From an uncultured Prevotellaceae bacterium (GTDB lineage: Bacteria > Bacteroidota > Bacteroidia > Bacteroidales > Bacteroidaceae): 64,000 nucleotides of DNA. Below are positions 1 through 7,946 of the stretch, one piece after another; the stretch's first letter is position 1, and every line of letters begins with the position of its first letter. The DNA lies in assembly GCA_900315105.1 (NCBI GenBank), contig OMXX01000004.1:62001-126000 (forward strand), written 5' to 3'. Both the position numbers and the translations under genes were made by a program. The notes below the pieces were generated by a model. The model did not search any database. It was not told where the DNA came from and was given only the letters and a program-made list of their open reading frames with translations.

Positions 1-648
1 AACATAAGAAACGCGTTTTATAAACTTATACAAGAAACACAATCTGGTGATTTGGTATACATTCACTTTTCTGGGCATGGACAAGCTGTAGAAGATATAA
101 ACGGAGATGAAAGCGATGGTTGGGATGAAGCAATCATACCAATTGACGCAAATCCCGAATATTCTCCTGAATTGTATAAGGGAGGTAATCATATATTGGA
201 TGATGAGCTTCATGAATTCTTTAGGTCCTTAAGAAAAAAAATTGGTCCCCAAGGGATAGTCTATGCAATCATAGATGCTTGTCATGCAGGTTCTATTTAT
301 CGAGGAGATGAAGTGGAAGACACTATATATGCTAGAGGAACAAATAAAGGTTTTACATTCTCAGGCAAAAGATATAGTCCTCGTATAGACAAGAGAGGGA
401 ACATCCTTGTAGAAAAAGGAGAAAAGCTATCTGATATCACAATTATTGAAGCGTGTCGTTCTTATGAAGTCAATACAGAGATTAAGCAAAATGGGGAGTA
501 TTTTGGCCCACTCTCATACTATGTTCACAAAGTTTTATCTACACATTCTCTTTCAAAGGACACTGTATGGAGTCGTATTGTCGCCAATTTAATGGACATG
601 GATAAACGACTTATTAAACAACATGTTGTAATAGAAACGACAAAATGA
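1..648 (+). CDS. Caspase-like (peptidase C14) protein, 5' end cut by window edge
   Basis: The reading frame is open from base 1, so the apparent TTG start at 52 is an artefact and the gene begins outside the window. The visible part carries the two hallmarks of the C14 caspase/metacaspase fold: SGHG with the catalytic His (codon 76-78), followed by a WDEAIIP-type segment, and IDACHAG with the catalytic Cys (codon 280-282). No signal peptide or membrane segment is visible in the part seen, so it is probably cytosolic. Its stop overlaps the next start (ATGA, 645-648), so it is translationally coupled to the sigma factor gene. Substrate unknown. Family call firm; role in the module inferred. Confidence 0.85.
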   Translation, partial: NIRNAFYKLIQETQSGDLVYIHFSGHGQAVEDINGDESDGWDEAIIPIDANPEYSPELYKGGNHILDDELHEFFRSLRKKIGPQGIVYAIIDACHAGSIYRGDEVEDTIYARGTNKGFTFSGKRYSPRIDKRGNILVEKGEKLSDITIIEACRSYEVNTEIKQNGEYFGPLSYYVHKVLSTHSLSKDTVWSRIVANLMDMDKRLIKQHVVIETTK

Positions 649-1223
649 AATTATTTTTTTTCAAGAAAACTTCTACAGAAGTTCAAATTAATAGAATCTT
701 AAAAGAATTTAGAGAAAAGACACTTGCATATCTTTCCTCAAATTTTTCTATGTCAATTGATGATTGTCAGGATGTTTTTCAAGAATCTTCCATAATCTTA
801 TACCAACAGGCAGTAGAGGGGAAACTTGATAACATCAAATCATCTCTATATACATATTTTGTTGGTATTTGCAAAAATAAAGCCTACGAAAATATAAGAA
901 AGAACAGCAAAATTGTTAACCTTTCATTTGATATAGGAACTAAAGAAGAGGATCTTAATATGATTCGAGTTAATAATATCCTCACCATTATAGATGACAA
1001 TGAAGTTCGTAGAAAAGAAAAACAGAATCAAGTACAAAAGATTGTTGCAGACCTTCCAAGTCCATGCTATGAACTTCTTTGGGGATTCTATCGTGATTCA
1101 CTATCTATAAAAGAACTCACAAAAATGTTCAATTACTCTAATGAGAATACACTTAAGGTAACCAAACATCGGTGTTGTGAGAAATTCCGCAAAAGATATA
1201 ACGAACTAAAAAGCAATTTCTAA
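645..1223 (+). CDS. ECF-type RNA polymerase sigma factor
   Basis: 192 aa, the usual size of an ECF sigma factor. Residues about 25-95 look like sigma region 2 (helix with CQDVFQESSIILYQQ, then LYTYFVGICKNKAYENIRK). Residues about 130-185 look like region 4, with a helix-turn-helix around LSIKELTKMFNYS and a Lys/Arg-rich end. No region 1.1 or 3. It would direct RNA polymerase to a dedicated promoter. It sits between a caspase gene (4-nt overlap) and a membrane protein with an anti-sigma-like start, which suggests it is held inactive until a proteolytic signal. The target promoters are not identifiable from this window. Confidence 0.82.
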   Translation: MKLFFFKKTSTEVQINRILKEFREKTLAYLSSNFSMSIDDCQDVFQESSIILYQQAVEGKLDNIKSSLYTYFVGICKNKAYENIRKNSKIVNLSFDIGTKEEDLNMIRVNNILTIIDDNEVRRKEKQNQVQKIVADLPSPCYELLWGFYRDSLSIKELTKMFNYSNENTLKVTKHRCCEKFRKRYNELKSNF

Positions 1224-1245
1224 TAATGAAATAATTATAAACATC

Positions 1246-1914
1246 ATGCTAGATAAGAACTCTGATAATCTCATTGACAATGAGACAAGAATAGACAGGT
1301 ATATGAAAGGCCTGATGACAATTGAGGAGGAATCCGCATTTGTTGATGATCTCAAGTCTGACGAGCAACTTCGTACCCAAACAGAATCTATTGCTCAACT
1401 TATTAAGGCGATGAATGTGGTTGGAGAAGGTCGTGACAAGGTAATAATCAGTCAGCTAAAAGAGGTAAAACACACATCTCATAATAGAATTTATTGGGCT
1501 ATTGCTGCTTGCATTCTATGTTTCTGTATATTGAGTATAAAAGGATATGACTATATGAATGTCACAAGTCTTGGTGACAACTATTGTGGTACATTCCCAA
1601 TTTCTGATATTATAAGAGGAACTCAAAATCAAAATACTGTAGAGCAACTTAAAGAACTCTTTTCAAATATCGAAGAAGGAAAAGAAATAGCCAGCAGTCT
1701 AGCCCAACTATCCATTCTGTGGCAAGAGTCTCAGAGTGAAATATATAATGATTATACTGATTATTCTCCCTACATAGGCTGGTATCTCGCTGTTGGATAT
1801 CTGAAAAACTATGATAAACAAAGCGCAAAAGATATACTCCAAAAGATGAAGGAACAATATCCTGCTAATACAGCCATTGGAGAAAAAGTTCGTGAACTTT
1901 TAAATAAAATTTAA
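1246..1914 (+). CDS. Single-pass membrane protein, anti-sigma-like with TPR-like C-terminus
   Basis: 222 aa. Residues about 15-45 (DRYMKGLMTIEEESAFVDDL) resemble the short cytosolic N-terminal helices common in Bacteroidetes anti-sigma and anti-sigma-like proteins. One hydrophobic helix lies at about 84-102 (YWAIAACILCFCILSI). The remainder, about 105-222, is helical with a TPR-like pattern near the end (YLAVGYLKNYDKQSAKDILQKM). With the N-terminus inside, the C-terminal part would be periplasmic. No HxxxCxxC zinc motif. Position directly after an ECF sigma gene (22-nt gap) and before a secreted TPR-CHAT gene (6-nt gap) supports an anti-sigma or signal-transducing role, which is inference. 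Confidence 0.6.
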   Translation: MLDKNSDNLIDNETRIDRYMKGLMTIEEESAFVDDLKSDEQLRTQTESIAQLIKAMNVVGEGRDKVIISQLKEVKHTSHNRIYWAIAACILCFCILSIKGYDYMNVTSLGDNYCGTFPISDIIRGTQNQNTVEQLKELFSNIEEGKEIASSLAQLSILWQESQSEIYNDYTDYSPYIGWYLAVGYLKNYDKQSAKDILQKMKEQYPANTAIGEKVRELLNKI

Positions 1915-1920
1915 CGAAAC

Positions 1921-4401
1921 ATGCTACGATATTGCATAGTCTTATTAACAATCTTCACATCGTTAAATGTGAAGGCTAATGATTGGATACCTTCGTCTGA
2001 CACACTCTCTCTAATAAACGAACAAATTAAAAGAAACGAAATATCATTAGCAATTAGTTATCTTCCTAGAGTTCTCGCCTACATGGATGATAAACCTGAG
2101 AATTTCATAGATTCTGCTTATGTTCAGATTTCTATGGAATTAGCTATTGCATACCAAATGACTGGCGACATACAATCAAGTGATAAGGCTGTGGATAACG
2201 CATCATTAGCGCTAGAGAAGCGAGGTATTAATAAGATTTTTTCTGAATTTGAGTTTGTTTCTGGTATAAGACAATACCAATTTAGAAATTATGAAAAAGC
2301 CCTTAAGCATTTCACATTAATAAAAGATAGAGAAAAGTTCAACTATCAAAATAGTAATTATCTTTCGTTAATAAGTATTATAGTAAGTTGTTATGCATCA
2401 TTAAATGATACTTTAAGAGGCTACCAATGCATAGAGGAAACATTAGAAATTTTCCGCATGTATGGAACAAATTACAATTCCTTGTCAAAAGTACAGTTTT
2501 TATCAAACAGTGGAACTTTTCTTGCTGAACATGGAAGGGAACAAGACGGAATACAATTAATTAAAAATGCCTATGACATTGCATGTGCAGATTCATCATG
2601 CAATGGTTTTTATAATAGGTTAATAATTAATCTCGGAACTTATTCTTTAAACAAAGAAGATTATAAAAAAGCAGATTTTTATTATAGAAGTGCAAAAGAA
2701 GATATATTAAATACAAATGAGAGATACGAACTGCTCAATGGACTTTTTCTTTTAAGCTATTATGTTGACAAAGAACAAGAAACATGCAAATATGCATCAG
2801 AATATTGTGAAAATCTTCGCAAACAAATCATAAGTCTATTTCAGAATTATTCCCTATTAACATTGGATAATTATTGGGATAATTATTGTACGCAATTGAA
2901 AGTCTATATGGGGGCTTTGCATAAATACAAATATTGTGCACAGTTAAACTCTATGTGTTACGATAATGCTTTGTTTATTAAAAGTCTGCCATATAATATA
3001 AAATCTCATCATAGGAAATATATAAATACGCATCCAGAGATAAAGAAAATCTCGGATCAAATAAAAAAAATACGTCAATTATTGTTTTTTTCAGATATAA
3101 GTAGTCAATATATAGATGAATATAGAGACTCTATAAGCAATTTAGAAGAAACAATGTTGAATATTCAAGATGCAGACCACGAATCTCTATATACGCCAAT
3201 ATTTTGGAAGGATGTCAAAAATGCTATAACTAAAGATGAAGTTGCTATAGAAATTATATCGTCTGCTGGTTTTTATTGCAGTAAAGAATCTCCAAAACTT
3301 AAACTTGGTGCATTGATTGTCTATAGTGATAGTGACGCACCGCAATATATCGAATTATGTGATAATGATTTAATGCAAGATGCGATTTCAAATTCATATG
3401 CACATAATGAGATGGGCATAAACCAACTATATACCTTCAATGGCAAATTCACTTTGTTTAATCTCTTATGGAAAAACATAGAACCTTGTGTAAAAAACAA
3501 GAAGAAAATATACATTTCTCCCACACTATCAACCCAAAATATTAACTGGGGATTTATTCCATGTCCAGATGGGAAATATCTTAATGATAAATACGAAATT
3601 CATCATTTATCTACAACGGCATCTCTTTTAAACAGAGAAATCTCAAGACATAAGACCGTGGCCATTTTTGGGGATATGAATTATAGTCAAGAACGTGGAT
3701 GTGGAACTGAACCTATGTTACGTGGAATGATAGAGGAATACGAAAAAAATCGTGGCAATTTTCTGAATTTAAATTATACGAAAGAAGAAATAGTTTCTGT
3801 AAGAAATATATTGACAGAAAGCGGGCTTGACATTTCTGTGTATTCCAAAGATAATGCTAACGAAAACTCGTTTAGGTCATTGGATGAGCACTCTCCTTCT
3901 ATTATACATATTTCATCTCATGCTTACTATTTGGTTGGTTTCGATAAATTTAATGATTATTTCAATAGATTGACTCCATTGATATCAAGGGATGAAAATA
4001 TGATAAGGAGTGGTATTTTATTCAATATGGCAAATAATGCTCTGAACTCTATTTCATTGTCTGATGTAACAACAGATGGAGTCTTGACTGCAGAAGAAAT
4101 ATCTACTATGGATCTATCAAATACAGATATGGTTGTAATCTCAGCGTGTGAGTCAATGATCGGATGTTCAAACGAAGGGTTGGGAGGTTTACCTAAAGCA
4201 TTTAAACTAGCAGGAGTACGTTCAATATTAGGAAGTTTATGGAAAGTATCTGATAGTGTAACATCTTTGTTAATGAATGAATTCTATCAAAACCTAAACA
4301 AAGGCCTTAGTAAAAACGAGTCTCTTATCCGCGCACAATATAAAGTAAGAGAACTCTATCCAGATCCATACTATTGGGCCGCATTTATACTTTTAGACTA
4401 G
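1921..4401 (+). CDS. Secreted TPR-CHAT domain protein (caspase-like)
   Basis: 826 aa. The N-terminus looks like a signal peptide (hydrophobic stretch ending VKA-ND, about residue 19). Residues about 30-360 are helical repeats of TPR type. Residues about 430-826 form a CHAT domain: HISSH with the predicted catalytic His667, ISACES with Cys743, and the conserved tail (GLGGLPKAFKLAGVRSILG, then SLWKVSD). CHAT proteins are caspase-fold peptidases usually switched on through their TPR part. Secretion to the periplasm, next to a membrane anti-sigma-like protein and an ECF sigma factor, suggests CHAT cleavage feeds a transcriptional response. The family is clear; periplasmic location and substrate are inferred. 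Confidence 0.85.
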   Translation: MLRYCIVLLTIFTSLNVKANDWIPSSDTLSLINEQIKRNEISLAISYLPRVLAYMDDKPENFIDSAYVQISMELAIAYQMTGDIQSSDKAVDNASLALEKRGINKIFSEFEFVSGIRQYQFRNYEKALKHFTLIKDREKFNYQNSNYLSLISIIVSCYASLNDTLRGYQCIEETLEIFRMYGTNYNSLSKVQFLSNSGTFLAEHGREQDGIQLIKNAYDIACADSSCNGFYNRLIINLGTYSLNKEDYKKADFYYRSAKEDILNTNERYELLNGLFLLSYYVDKEQETCKYASEYCENLRKQIISLFQNYSLLTLDNYWDNYCTQLKVYMGALHKYKYCAQLNSMCYDNALFIKSLPYNIKSHHRKYINTHPEIKKISDQIKKIRQLLFFSDISSQYIDEYRDSISNLEETMLNIQDADHESLYTPIFWKDVKNAITKDEVAIEIISSAGFYCSKESPKLKLGALIVYSDSDAPQYIELCDNDLMQDAISNSYAHNEMGINQLYTFNGKFTLFNLLWKNIEPCVKNKKKIYISPTLSTQNINWGFIPCPDGKYLNDKYEIHHLSTTASLLNREISRHKTVAIFGDMNYSQERGCGTEPMLRGMIEEYEKNRGNFLNLNYTKEEIVSVRNILTESGLDISVYSKDNANENSFRSLDEHSPSIIHISSHAYYLVGFDKFNDYFNRLTPLISRDENMIRSGILFNMANNALNSISLSDVTTDGVLTAEEISTMDLSNTDMVVISACESMIGCSNEGLGGLPKAFKLAGVRSILGSLWKVSDSVTSLLMNEFYQNLNKGLSKNESLIRAQYKVRELYPDPYYWAAFILLD

Positions 4402-4765: not shown

Positions 4766-5005
4766 ATGGACAATAGTATAATAGTAATCATCGCCTTTGC
4801 TGTAGTCGTTGTGGGTTTAGCAATCGCTGCAGAACTCATCTTGACAATAATAGGTGGCATTATTGGTATGGTTGTATTCTTCATACCAGGAATATTGATA
4901 GCATGTGGAGCAAAAAAGTTTGGTCTAAATGATGGAGTATGTGCCTTAGCGGGATTTGTATGGATTATCTTCGCTTGTGTAATGGTGTCAAAAGTTATAG
5001 GGTAG
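4766..5005 (+). CDS. Small hydrophobic membrane protein (79 aa)
   Basis: 79 aa and almost entirely hydrophobic. Two or three membrane segments are visible (about 4-38, broken at a Gly-Gly pair, and about 58-78), with a short polar loop around AKKFGLNDG. No recognised family. Glycine-rich helices and tiny size are compatible with an effector-type membrane protein or a structural helper, but nothing shows which. It lies 39 nt after the 56-aa ORF and 92 nt before the LOTUS-domain gene, so the three may share a transcript. Confidence 0.55.
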   Translation: MDNSIIVIIAFAVVVVGLAIAAELILTIIGGIIGMVVFFIPGILIACGAKKFGLNDGVCALAGFVWIIFACVMVSKVIG

Positions 5006-5097
5006 TGAAATTCCGTTTTCCTATTTCCCCAATCCCAGGTGAAAGATATAAAGAACAGATTGATAGATTAACAACAAATACTAATAATTACAGAATT

Positions 5098-6291
5098 ATG
5101 GATTGCACAGTAGTGAATATAGTACAAGGAATTGTAAATACAAACAAGCGTAATGATGGCTGGACAGAGTTGGCATGTTTAGGAGTTGCGTTATCCAATA
5201 AAGGTGTAAACATTAAAGATTACGGTTATACAAAACTCAAGTCTTTTTTCGATTCAATGCCTGATACGTTCACAATTACTACTGATTCAAAAACCAGCTT
5301 ACCATTGGTTAAATGTGCTAGTAGCGATTTTGAAACAGAAACCACAACCGTTCCTTGTGTTGACCATGGAAGGGTTCAGAAGCCTATACAACTTACAAAA
5401 TGGGCATGTATTAATCAAAGAGAAGCAATAGATGCGCTCAAAGAAATTTCTTTAAAAGAGTGTTGGTCTTATAAGACAAAAGATGAAAACTATCCTTCTC
5501 CAATTCTTGCAAAGTACCTTAAGTGGACTTTTGTGAAGATTCTTAGAGAGAACAAGATTCTGTATGCCAACAAATATGCAGCATTCAATACAGGTTTGGT
5601 AGATAAGTTTTATAAACCAATTTACGCTTTATTCGAGAAAAATCGTATTCCAATGCAGCCATGGTATTTCAAGTCATTTTGTGTTGCAGGGAGTAGTTGT
5701 GTTGCATCTCGTATTTTGACAGACAATTTTTCTGTTTTACCACAGCGTGCAACTTATATAACAAATTATGACGATATCATATTTGACTGTTCTCTTCCTA
5801 TAGATGTAAATTGGGATCATATTATTTTAGAAAATATTGATAGACTTCCCAATGATTTTCTTAGACAGGTTTGCCTCGGACTTATTGAGATTCGTGATAA
5901 CGAAAGCATAAAAAATGAGTCGGGAAAACATTATTACGAAGAATTGAAGTCTGTGCTTCATAATAATCCTAATAGGTTGGCAATGCTGTCCAATTTACTT
6001 AACGCTGCTGTTGAAGTTGCAAAACTGAGAGTAGAGTGGAACTATAAGACTGCTATTCCAATATATTATCCTACGGATGATAAGATACATCTGATCCTTC
6101 CATTAGCTTTGGATTACAATGAACCTGATAAAATATCTTTAGCGTTGGTAATGACAAAAACACCATCAAAAAGATATCGAGCCGTTACGATTCTCACGTT
6201 GGATATGGCATATACAAATGCGAGATTGGTAACAAAGCCATCTAGCGACTGGCTTAATGCAGAAGCCATTCATACTGCAAATAATGAATAA
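5098..6291 (+). CDS. LOTUS/OST-HTH plus DUF3825-like protein
   Basis: 397 aa from ATG 5098. The open frame reaches back to 4939, but that would overlap the preceding gene and the added residues look non-coding. Residues about 8-70 match the OST-HTH/LOTUS pattern (DGWTELACLGVALSNKG, then YGYTKLKSFFDSMP), a winged helix that binds RNA (G-quadruplex binding reported for some members). Residues about 100-390 resemble DUF3825 (PILAKYLKWTFVKIL, AAFNTGL, IYALFEKN, PWYFKSF). Linkage of LOTUS domains to uncharacterised bacterial domains in predicted RNA-related contexts is known; the biochemical role here is unknown. LOTUS call is good, DUF3825 call moderate. Confidence 0.7.
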   Translation: MDCTVVNIVQGIVNTNKRNDGWTELACLGVALSNKGVNIKDYGYTKLKSFFDSMPDTFTITTDSKTSLPLVKCASSDFETETTTVPCVDHGRVQKPIQLTKWACINQREAIDALKEISLKECWSYKTKDENYPSPILAKYLKWTFVKILRENKILYANKYAAFNTGLVDKFYKPIYALFEKNRIPMQPWYFKSFCVAGSSCVASRILTDNFSVLPQRATYITNYDDIIFDCSLPIDVNWDHIILENIDRLPNDFLRQVCLGLIEIRDNESIKNESGKHYYEELKSVLHNNPNRLAMLSNLLNAAVEVAKLRVEWNYKTAIPIYYPTDDKIHLILPLALDYNEPDKISLALVMTKTPSKRYRAVTILTLDMAYTNARLVTKPSSDWLNAEAIHTANNE

Positions 6292-6318: not shown

Positions 6319-6954
6319 ATGAAATACAATACAAATCTTGAGAATGTTTTCAATAACACAAGAATGCTTATTAGCAACATATCCGCATCAACTCTTTTGA
6401 TAGAGGAAATGGAGATATATGGATATGTGACAGATGAAATGGTCGACAAATTTGGGGATTCTAACATGATAAATCTTGATGGTTCCAACAGGATTGTATG
6501 TTCTGACAGAATCTTCCAACTTCAGCCTGTAATTGAAAATACATGTTATGGATCATCAATTAAATCGATTGGCATAACTATCCCAATTTTTAAATCTGCT
6601 AAAAAAGAGGAAGAAGATATGTGCATTCCTCTAAAGCAAATATATGTTCCTTCACTTGTCTCAAATCCACTTTACATAGCTATCAGATCAAGAACAAAGA
6701 ATGGAATTTGTGAAGTAAATGAATATAAGTTGTCGAAAAACAAAATGCCAGACAATATTATTGTTGTAGAGAAAGAAGCTTATTACAAGACAACTGTAGG
6801 CGAAATCATTTGTAGGGACAAATATGGCAATATCAAAGGTGTATGTAATAATATCATGGCTGTATGCCGATACATCAATCAAACTACAGGTTCCATGAAC
6901 TATACCATATTACCTTTAGAAGATATATATGTTAAATCAGATATATATTCATAG
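6319..6954 (+). CDS. Unknown protein (211 aa)
   Basis: 211 aa, soluble, no signal peptide or membrane segment. The first 35 residues look helical; the rest looks beta-rich with repeated hydrophobic/charged alternation (for example QIYVPSLVSNPLYIAIRSRT). I recognise no family motif. It starts 27 nt after the LOTUS-domain gene and its stop codon overlaps the Shine-Dalgarno of the next gene, so it is probably part of the same operon. Confidence 0.6.
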   Translation: MKYNTNLENVFNNTRMLISNISASTLLIEEMEIYGYVTDEMVDKFGDSNMINLDGSNRIVCSDRIFQLQPVIENTCYGSSIKSIGITIPIFKSAKKEEEDMCIPLKQIYVPSLVSNPLYIAIRSRTKNGICEVNEYKLSKNKMPDNIIVVEKEAYYKTTVGEIICRDKYGNIKGVCNNIMAVCRYINQTTGSMNYTILPLEDIYVKSDIYS

Positions 6955-6968
6955 GAGGATAGATTATG
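6953..6968 (+). promoter_or_regulatory. Strong Shine-Dalgarno overlapping a stop codon
   Basis: AGGAGG at 6953-6958 lies 7 nt before ATG 6966 and overlaps the TAG of the upstream gene. Perfect Shine-Dalgarno sequences are uncommon in Bacteroidetes, so this one decides the start and suggests coupling or an unusual translation rate. Confidence 0.6.
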
Positions 6969-7379
6969 GCACAGACATATATACAGGAACTGTCAGACAG
7001 GTTTGAATTCGGTAAGTATAGAGGATGCTCTTTAAGCGAAGTTATGGATTGTAATCCTTCTTATGTCAGGTGGGTGTTGAGGAATATAGATGATAGTATA
7101 TTTTATATTTCTCGTAATGCAATAGATGAAATGAAGAAAATATATCCAGATTTCGTAATTGATGAAGGCCTCGCACAAATACTTGAACAAAAATCTCATT
7201 CAGATGAATCTGAGGAATATTACGAAGATGATGGTTCGGAGTCATGTTCTCCTTACTACGAAGAACCAACATACGATAGATATAATGGTTCCTACGCGCA
7301 GGATGAGATGGGATATAGTGATGAAGATATTGATATAATATTTGATGGAGATCCTGATGCATATTGGAATATAGACTAA
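6966..7379 (+). CDS. Small protein with ExoX-C/DUF3820-like domain and acidic tail
   Basis: 137 aa. Residues about 12-45 (FEFGKYRGCSLSEVM, then PSYVRWVL) match the short 'FGKYKGK..EEV...P.YL.W' module seen at the C-terminus of exodeoxyribonuclease X-like proteins and in small stand-alone proteins. Residues about 75-137 are strongly acidic and Tyr-rich (for example DESEEYYEDDGSES), probably disordered. No nuclease domain is present, so it is likely a binding or adaptor protein. It is the last gene of the AT-rich island before the housekeeping block. Confidence 0.55.
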   Translation: MAQTYIQELSDRFEFGKYRGCSLSEVMDCNPSYVRWVLRNIDDSIFYISRNAIDEMKKIYPDFVIDEGLAQILEQKSHSDESEEYYEDDGSESCSPYYEEPTYDRYNGSYAQDEMGYSDEDIDIIFDGDPDAYWNID

Positions 7380-7487
7380 AATGGCACATATCTAAAAAAT
7401 GGTTTGCGCACAAGAACAAAAGAATAGTATAGTAATGTATATAGTTCGGATACATTTTACGATTTCCGGCTGACTTATTGCGAGTAC

Positions 7488-7517
7488 GCTCTAAATTACT
7501 GAGAATAAGTACCTTTG
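7488..7517 (+). promoter_or_regulatory. Putative promoter (TACCTTTG)
   Basis: TACCTTTG at 7510-7517 fits the Bacteroidetes -7 consensus TAnnTTTG, with TTG at 7488-7490 about 19 bp upstream as -33. No open reading frame of note follows within 150 bp, so it may drive a non-coding RNA or be a relic. Confidence 0.45.
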
Positions 7518-7623
7518 CAGATTTGCAACATAAAATGCTCTGTTTCCTGAATGTAACAATGCACTATTGCGCAAATGTAAAAAGTGTAGCATGTTATAAA
7601 TCACTAACTTTATGAAACAATAA

Positions 7624-7657
7624 TTTGTATGAATCTCGGGAAAAGTTTATAACTTTG
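7624..7657 (+). promoter_or_regulatory. Putative promoter (TAACTTTG) without clear gene
   Basis: TAACTTTG at 7650-7657 with TTTG at 7624-7627 (22-bp spacing, slightly long). The following 290 bases have short hairpin-forming stretches but no convincing reading frame. Confidence 0.4.
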
Positions 7658-7946
7658 CACTCAGAAAAGGTAAACATTTAGCGTTTGTTTATATCATGAC
7701 AGATCGAAAAATATGGTTACAATCATTGTGAAAACTGAATTGTAAGACAAAGAAATACAATTGAGTGTTTAGCTTAGACGGTACAAAAATTGTATTAATG
7801 GGATTAACGCAAGGCGCAAGGTCAATGTCAGCGAAAGCTGGTGTTGACTTTGTTCTTTTATTGTGTACTAAGTCCATTCCCCTTTTCCTGTTCTTTTTCT
7901 CGAACAGCGACACTTGTCCCTTGCAAGTGATTCCGTTGCCATTCCG

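Follow-up and report, generated by a model that had tools for sequence, protein, structure and literature searches.

A conserved module of a metacaspase-like protease, an extracytoplasmic function sigma factor, a probable membrane anti-sigma factor and a TPR-CHAT protease in an uncultured Prevotellaceae bacterium and its relatives

Gene content and catalytic residues of the locus

We analysed a 64,000-nucleotide stretch of DNA from an uncultured Prevotellaceae bacterium (GenBank assembly GCA_900315105.1, contig OMXX01000004.1, positions 62,001 to 126,000; hereafter, the window), which opens with four genes on the forward strand: the 3' part of a gene for an exported, metacaspase-like C14 peptidase (1..648; hereafter, the caspase), whose 5' end lies beyond the window edge, followed by genes for a 192-amino-acid extracytoplasmic function (ECF) sigma factor (645..1223), a 222-amino-acid single-pass membrane protein that is probably an anti-sigma factor (1246..1914) and an exported 826-amino-acid TPR-CHAT protease (1921..4401). 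As detailed below, these genes form a conserved module of gut bacteria. An earlier reading of the sequence alone (hereafter, the original prediction) had described the four genes as separated by tiny gaps, and this is borne out by the sequence and the list of open reading frames (ORFs): the caspase and sigma genes overlap by 4 nt, a 22-nt gap separates the sigma and membrane-protein genes, and 6 nt lie between the latter and the CHAT gene. The catalytic codons of both proteases were likewise found where they had been predicted, at 76-78 (His) and 280-282 (Cys) for the caspase and at 3919-3921 (His667) and 4147-4149 (Cys743) for the CHAT protease.

The caspase matched the Peptidase_C14 profile (PF00656, E 5.9e-10), and its nearest solved structures are metacaspases; the C14 fold together with the His-Cys dyad identifies it as a metacaspase-like peptidase. 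Catalytic His127 and Cys195 were present in 48/48 caspases, in all of which Asp75 and Asp193 were also invariant. Judged by motif position, the two Asp residues are likely the counterparts of Asp95 and Asp211, which are named as the acidic S1 pocket of TbMC2 (PMC6426788), with the hidden Markov model alignment being loose at the N-terminal Asp. In the same source, the C14B class (metacaspases) is described as cleaving after basic residues, with two Asp in the pocket. Because the module caspase is metacaspase-like and carries the invariant Asp pair, it is expected to cut after Arg.

Seeing no signal peptide on this C14 peptidase, the original prediction had taken the caspase to be cytosolic. 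This is contradicted by P0042, a database protein of 316 amino acids that equals the window caspase over all 215 visible residues and has a hydrophobic, export-type N-terminal segment preceding AQNKRALIVGIS; the segment had been missed because the window edge cuts the 5' end of the gene. A similar segment was found in relatives (e.g., P0043 and P0045) and in nearly all module caspases, the exception being that of locus L104, where the called ORF shows no such segment over its first 60 residues. The window CHAT protein and most module CHATs also start with an export-type segment. With the full-length caspase thus carrying such a segment, both proteases are predicted to be periplasmic.

The CHAT domain of the window protein was assigned by PF12770 (E 4.9e-49), and the fold of the TPR-CHAT protein is closest to Csx29/TPR-CHAT, separase and DdvA. 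Its catalytic His and Cys were each present in 38/39 CHAT domains, the one missing residue at each position being accounted for by the end of a contig or of the fetched sequence. In a smaller comparison, the dyad was found in 8/8 TPR-CHAT proteins, and the window protein likewise combines a helical repeat N-terminus with the CHAT dyad. Given these intact catalytic residues, CHAT is surely a working enzyme, as far as its sequence tells.

The sigma factor was recognised by the NCBIfam sigma70-ECF profile (TIGR02937) over residues 17-184, with 43.8 bits at a cut-off of 42.9, which places it among ECF factors having regions 2 and 4 only; the score for Pfam Sigma70_r2 (17.9 bits) was under the cut-off of 24. 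A sigma gene occupies the equivalent position in relatives.

For the 222-amino-acid membrane protein, profile scans returned no family above cut-off, and its N-terminus gave weak matches to FecR-type anti-sigma proteins. The ORF, the alignment of relatives and an AlphaFold2 model indicate a cytosolic helical N-terminus, a transmembrane (TM) helix (residues 80-113), a periplasmic linker (residues 114-128; 1585..1629) and a helical, TPR-like periplasmic domain (residues 129-221). The linker is predicted to be disordered, as the model places no regular structure between the helices at 80-113 and 129-144. One TM helix between a cytosolic N-domain and a periplasmic domain, encoded next to a sigma gene, is the architecture of a transmembrane anti-sigma factor, and we consider anti-sigma activity probable.

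Conservation and co-variation of the four genes

Scanning genomes with the membrane protein yielded 18 loci, 14 of which held all four genes, while the remaining four (L002, L011, L013 and L018) were interrupted by contig ends. Three of the latter (L011, L013 and L018) lie on short contigs whose genomes carry the label Lachnospiraceae or Bacillota, probably through misassignment. We also ran a caspase profile (threshold E 1e-10) over 301 genomes from the family to which Prevotella sp. MA2016 (G001) belongs; it found 47 places in 44 genomes, and the surroundings of all 47 were fetched. A sigma gene lay on the same strand within 8 kb of 45/47 caspases and within 500 bp of 39/47, being missing only at those of G015 and G180:C48; as background, the sigma profile gave 1 match in 167,381 bp located more than 6 kb away from caspases. 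The membrane-protein profile matched within 8 kb at 35/47 caspase loci, and a single-TM ORF stood directly 3' of the sigma gene at 40/47 under a strict hydropathy rule. A CHAT domain was found within 8 kb of 35/47 caspases (28 in the orientation of the caspase and 7 in the reverse), against a chance expectation of 0.0022 per caspase or about 0.1 in total, and 35 of the 44 caspase genomes also held a CHAT (Fisher p 6e-18). In a wider phylum sample (296 genomes, 52 with a caspase-profile match), no sigma gene was seen in the flanks of about 1.5 kb at the 29 loci inspected. The proposal that the four genes act as a unit thus holds up well: their linkage is conserved across genome neighbourhoods, and the caspase, sigma factor, membrane protein and CHAT constitute a conserved module.

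The four proteins differ in how closely they are bound to this module. Across 41 distinct four-gene loci, protein distances correlated strongly between caspase and sigma (r 0.90), caspase and membrane protein (0.88), and sigma and membrane protein (0.91), and less so between CHAT and caspase (0.61), sigma (0.56) or membrane protein (0.49). None of 2000 permutations reached any of the six correlations, to which shared genome ancestry contributes. A variant at nine loci (L109 and L111-L118) consists of caspase, sigma and a shorter membrane protein and has no CHAT within 8 kb; the sigma gene lies 3-5 kb from the caspase in L112, L114 and L115. Eight of the nine genomes with this variant had no CHAT match at all, for which genome incompleteness is a possible cause. 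CHAT is therefore the looser, exchangeable partner, and the other three co-vary more tightly. Moreover, CHAT genes numbered 117 in 71/301 genomes, and since only 38/117 were near a module-type caspase, CHAT also has other lives.

Several loci showed additional genes. At L053 (10260-16359), a tandem pair of CHAT genes lies upstream of the caspase. At four CHAT-less loci (L116, L117, L118 and L113), which represent a repeated chromosomal place, the membrane protein is followed by two secreted proteins that belong to no known family, and a further protein there is one that we take to resemble glycyl-tRNA synthetase. Downstream of the window module lies a DUF3825 gene with an OST-HTH/LOTUS domain (4939-6291), and DUF3825 adjoins the module in L012 too (6848-7660).

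A conserved arginine site in the linker of the membrane protein

The linker of the membrane protein contains Arg124-Gly125 (1615..1620), a candidate cleavage site (P1-P1') that was invariant in all 21 rows of alignment A3. To the 21 A3 rows we added 35 profile matches from the caspase survey and 9 proteins of the CHAT-less variant, giving a pool of 65 partners; no partner was obtained at 3/47 caspase loci (L099, L103 and L110). After redundancy filtering, 52 partners remained at <70% identity and 26 at about 40%. When the 60 residues that follow the best hydrophobic segment were considered, Arg-[GSA] was present in 52/52 partners, where tail shuffling predicted 18.7. When the interval was narrowed to 8-50 residues, it still occurred in 52/52, and in 26/26 at about 40% identity (8.0 expected). 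The second-best residue preceding [GSA] reached 38/52, and Lys-[GSA] was found in 9/52. The residue following Arg was Gly in 37, Ser in 9 and Ala in 6 partners, and even divergent partners, some with about 50 residues beyond the membrane, retained the site. Among eight controls (anti-sigma-like, encoded beside a sigma gene, non-FecR-type and without a caspase), only two (L158 and L173) had Arg-[GSA], a difference with a Fisher p of 5.6e-7 when related proteins are counted as independent.

Which of the two proteases would use this site can be addressed by the CHAT-less genomes. Eight genomes retain the caspase, sigma and Arg site and have no CHAT match; this, together with the stronger co-variation of the membrane protein with the caspase than with CHAT, favours the former as the protease for the site. 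The original prediction had held that either the periplasmic TPR-CHAT or the cytosolic caspase cleaves the membrane anti-sigma. The idea of cleavage by a caspase-fold protease gains strength from the conserved linker site and is narrowed to the caspase; its placement of that enzyme in the cytosol does not stand.

A promoter-like element upstream of caspase and CHAT genes

A six-genome subclade has the element TTTTATAC-N-AAAAGGTAAC-N(about 20)-TGTA-TTTG upstream of the caspase operon and again upstream of CHAT, which is a transcription unit of its own in copies that carry it on the opposite strand; outside the subclade the element is nearly absent. Its GTAAC resembles ECF -35 elements. The strict pattern for the upstream part occurred 6 times in six genomes, and every occurrence belonged to the module: five were at caspase operons and one was at CHAT in G189. 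The G189 element falls inside the first codons of the called CHAT ORF, which must therefore truly begin further downstream. A relaxed pattern gave 12 matches in ten genomes (5 caspase operons, 5 CHAT genes, 1 further match in G241 and 1 elsewhere, in G263), against 2 for a reversed control pattern; it gave none in G120, G018 and G243. A variant of the element lies upstream of the G263 caspase, and the promoter of the window copy falls beyond the window edge. The extra G241 copy (G241:C1:126941-126970), about 1.3 kb from the CHAT copy, is unexplained and points into the antisense side of a neighbouring gene.

Proposed mechanism and alternatives

Taking these findings together, we favour, with little more than even confidence, a model of a self-amplifying sigma switch in the envelope, of the regulated intramembrane proteolysis type, with the caspase as its site-1 protease. 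The single-pass anti-sigma-like protein would hold the ECF sigma factor at the inner membrane until an envelope signal activates the exported metacaspase-like protease. The latter would then cut the anti-sigma just outside the membrane, after the conserved linker Arg (Arg|Gly/Ser/Ala), and a general RseP-type site-2 protease would complete proteolysis and free the sigma factor. Freed sigma may read the promoter-like element and transcribe the module's own genes, including the caspase and TPR-CHAT, which would supply more periplasmic protease and close a positive loop. TPR-CHAT would be accessory, either as a co-regulated output or as a sensor or activator of the caspase. More tentatively, the regulon of the freed sigma is possibly little more than the module itself, the output being a burst of periplasmic caspase-fold protease, in some genomes on mobile islands; in that case the module would represent a bacterial caspase cascade coupled to transcription across the inner membrane.

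Several observations weigh against this model. The Arg-[GSA] motif was spotted before being tested, and the tests treat related proteins as independent. The caspase-less control L158 has Arg-Gly at a similar place (that of L173 lies further on), and across all 19 control proteins Arg-[GSA] was found in 6 within the same interval, 3 of these being FecR-type. G018 (L064, 7216-11734) has a sigma gene, an Arg-Gly membrane protein and a convergent CHAT, and the caspase profile found nothing in this genome at the E 1e-10 threshold; here the cut may be made by CHAT. Besides the G263 variant, the promoter-like element was seen in one subclade, and the caspase genes of the closest relatives of the window (L001-L017) were not found to have it upstream; its -10-like part is also compatible with the Bacteroides housekeeping consensus. 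A site-2 protease was present in 12/12 genomes, which carries no information, since the 14 control genomes all have one too. Finally, the caspase's own linker carries an Arg-Gly that could be taken for an autoprocessing site, and it is not specific, as 25/25 readable sigma-less caspases share it.

The same linkage could arise if an ordinary site-1 protease or a ligand controlled the sigma/anti-sigma pair, with caspase and CHAT as outputs of the regulon and Arg-[GSA] as a structural feature or the site of another protease. Operon position alone cannot tell a regulator from a target, and an element that precedes caspase operon and CHAT gene alike is what such outputs would have. However, the strong co-variation of caspase and membrane protein argues against this explanation, as does the retention of a basic plus a small residue in an otherwise divergent linker, mostly only with the caspase module, and we judge it rather unlikely.

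Some copies of the module lie in a mobile context. In L003, L004 and L005 (from about 6985), a module block that is 98.4-99.8% identical over 9 kb begins at a tRNA-Met gene in three genomes with different left flanks. In G001, 23 kb further, a near-copy of the tRNA 3' end stands beside a tyrosine recombinase gene (PF00589, PF13102; L188, 4605-5867), and the block looks like a tRNA-Met genomic island. AbiH (PF14253; L003, 8696-9658) and SLFN_AlbA_2 (PF04326; L017, 8764-10332) genes are found between the membrane-protein and CHAT genes. These near-identical blocks in three backgrounds and the AbiH or SLFN_AlbA_2 genes inside some copies would suit a mobile-island device for defence or cell death, in which periplasmic proteases kill upon envelope attack by a phage or rival and the sigma loop amplifies the response. 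In contrast, PADLOC returned a weak generic caspase match only, and no match was found in the phage records, plasmid records or viral contigs searched. A defence role therefore seems unlikely to us; it concerns the purpose of the module and can be compatible with the caspase as site-1 protease.

By analogy with Csx29 acting on Csx30, TPR-CHAT could itself be the site-1 protease for the Arg site, leaving the caspase as an output or second-stage enzyme. We consider this quite unlikely, given that eight genomes keep the site without a CHAT match, that co-variation with the membrane protein is lowest for CHAT (r 0.49 vs 0.88 for the caspase) and that CHAT, unlike sigma, is on the opposite strand or absent at 19/47 caspase loci. 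That the genes are chance neighbours with no functional connection is refuted by the conserved linkage and co-variation, and its probability is practically negligible.

If the caspase is indeed the site-1 protease, a metacaspase would join the systems of anti-sigma proteolysis in that capacity. Prokaryotic caspase relatives are common, and very few have known substrates; here, the sequence itself suggests a candidate substrate, a precise candidate bond (Arg124-Gly125) and, in sigma activity, a readout, for 44 caspase loci in 42 genomes.

Comparison with known systems

The module as described was not recognised in the open-access literature searched. CalpL-CalpT-CalpS, which the original prediction had named as a parallel, is a cascade of protease, anti-sigma-like protein and sigma factor, in which the Lon-SAVED protease is activated by a cyclic oligonucleotide. 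A profile scan found none of its domains (Lon-SAVED, CalpT) in the four module proteins.

A CHAT neighbourhood is common to the module and to ECF54, near which genes for CHAT, subtilase and carboxypeptidase occur and for which proteolytic control has been proposed (PMC8999054). In the same source, ECF54 factors are described as lacking an anti-sigma and as regulated through proteolysis of the sigma factor itself, whereas the core of our module includes a gene for a membrane anti-sigma-like protein. In DdvS/DdvA of Myxococcus xanthus, DdvA joins anti-sigma and TPR-CHAT-like parts in one protein; the module has separate genes and a caspase in addition.

The proposed logic resembles that of DegS-RseA-RseP (sigma-E), in which a single-pass anti-sigma is cut first on its periplasmic side close to the membrane (site 1) and then at site 2. 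The site-1 protease there is DegS, a PDZ serine protease, whereas the module would use a metacaspase-like Cys peptidase that is specific for Arg and comes from the same operon.

A further likeness noted in the original prediction was to the TPR-CHAT and sigma partner of type III-E CRISPR, and it holds in the sense of 'works like', by the TPR-CHAT fold and by the arrangement of protease, sigma and inhibitor. No Cas or Csx30 family was found among the first seven window proteins, which were those scanned, the rest of the window and genome not having been scanned for CRISPR. Csx29 shares the TPR-CHAT fold of the module CHAT (Foldseek E 3e-13 to 8e-12, among the best matches listed), and in Csx29-Csx30-CASP-sigma a caspase-fold protease likewise stands beside an ECF sigma factor and its inhibitor, cleavage of which frees sigma in the published model. 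Unlike that system, the module has export segments on CHAT and caspase, a membrane-bound inhibitor, a second, metacaspase-like protease and a CHAT that is not always present, whose predicted export segment sets it apart from the cytosolic CHAT of the type III-E Craspase. If our model is true, the module would be a counterpart of the Csx29-Csx30-sigma and DdvA systems that spans the membrane and does not involve CRISPR.

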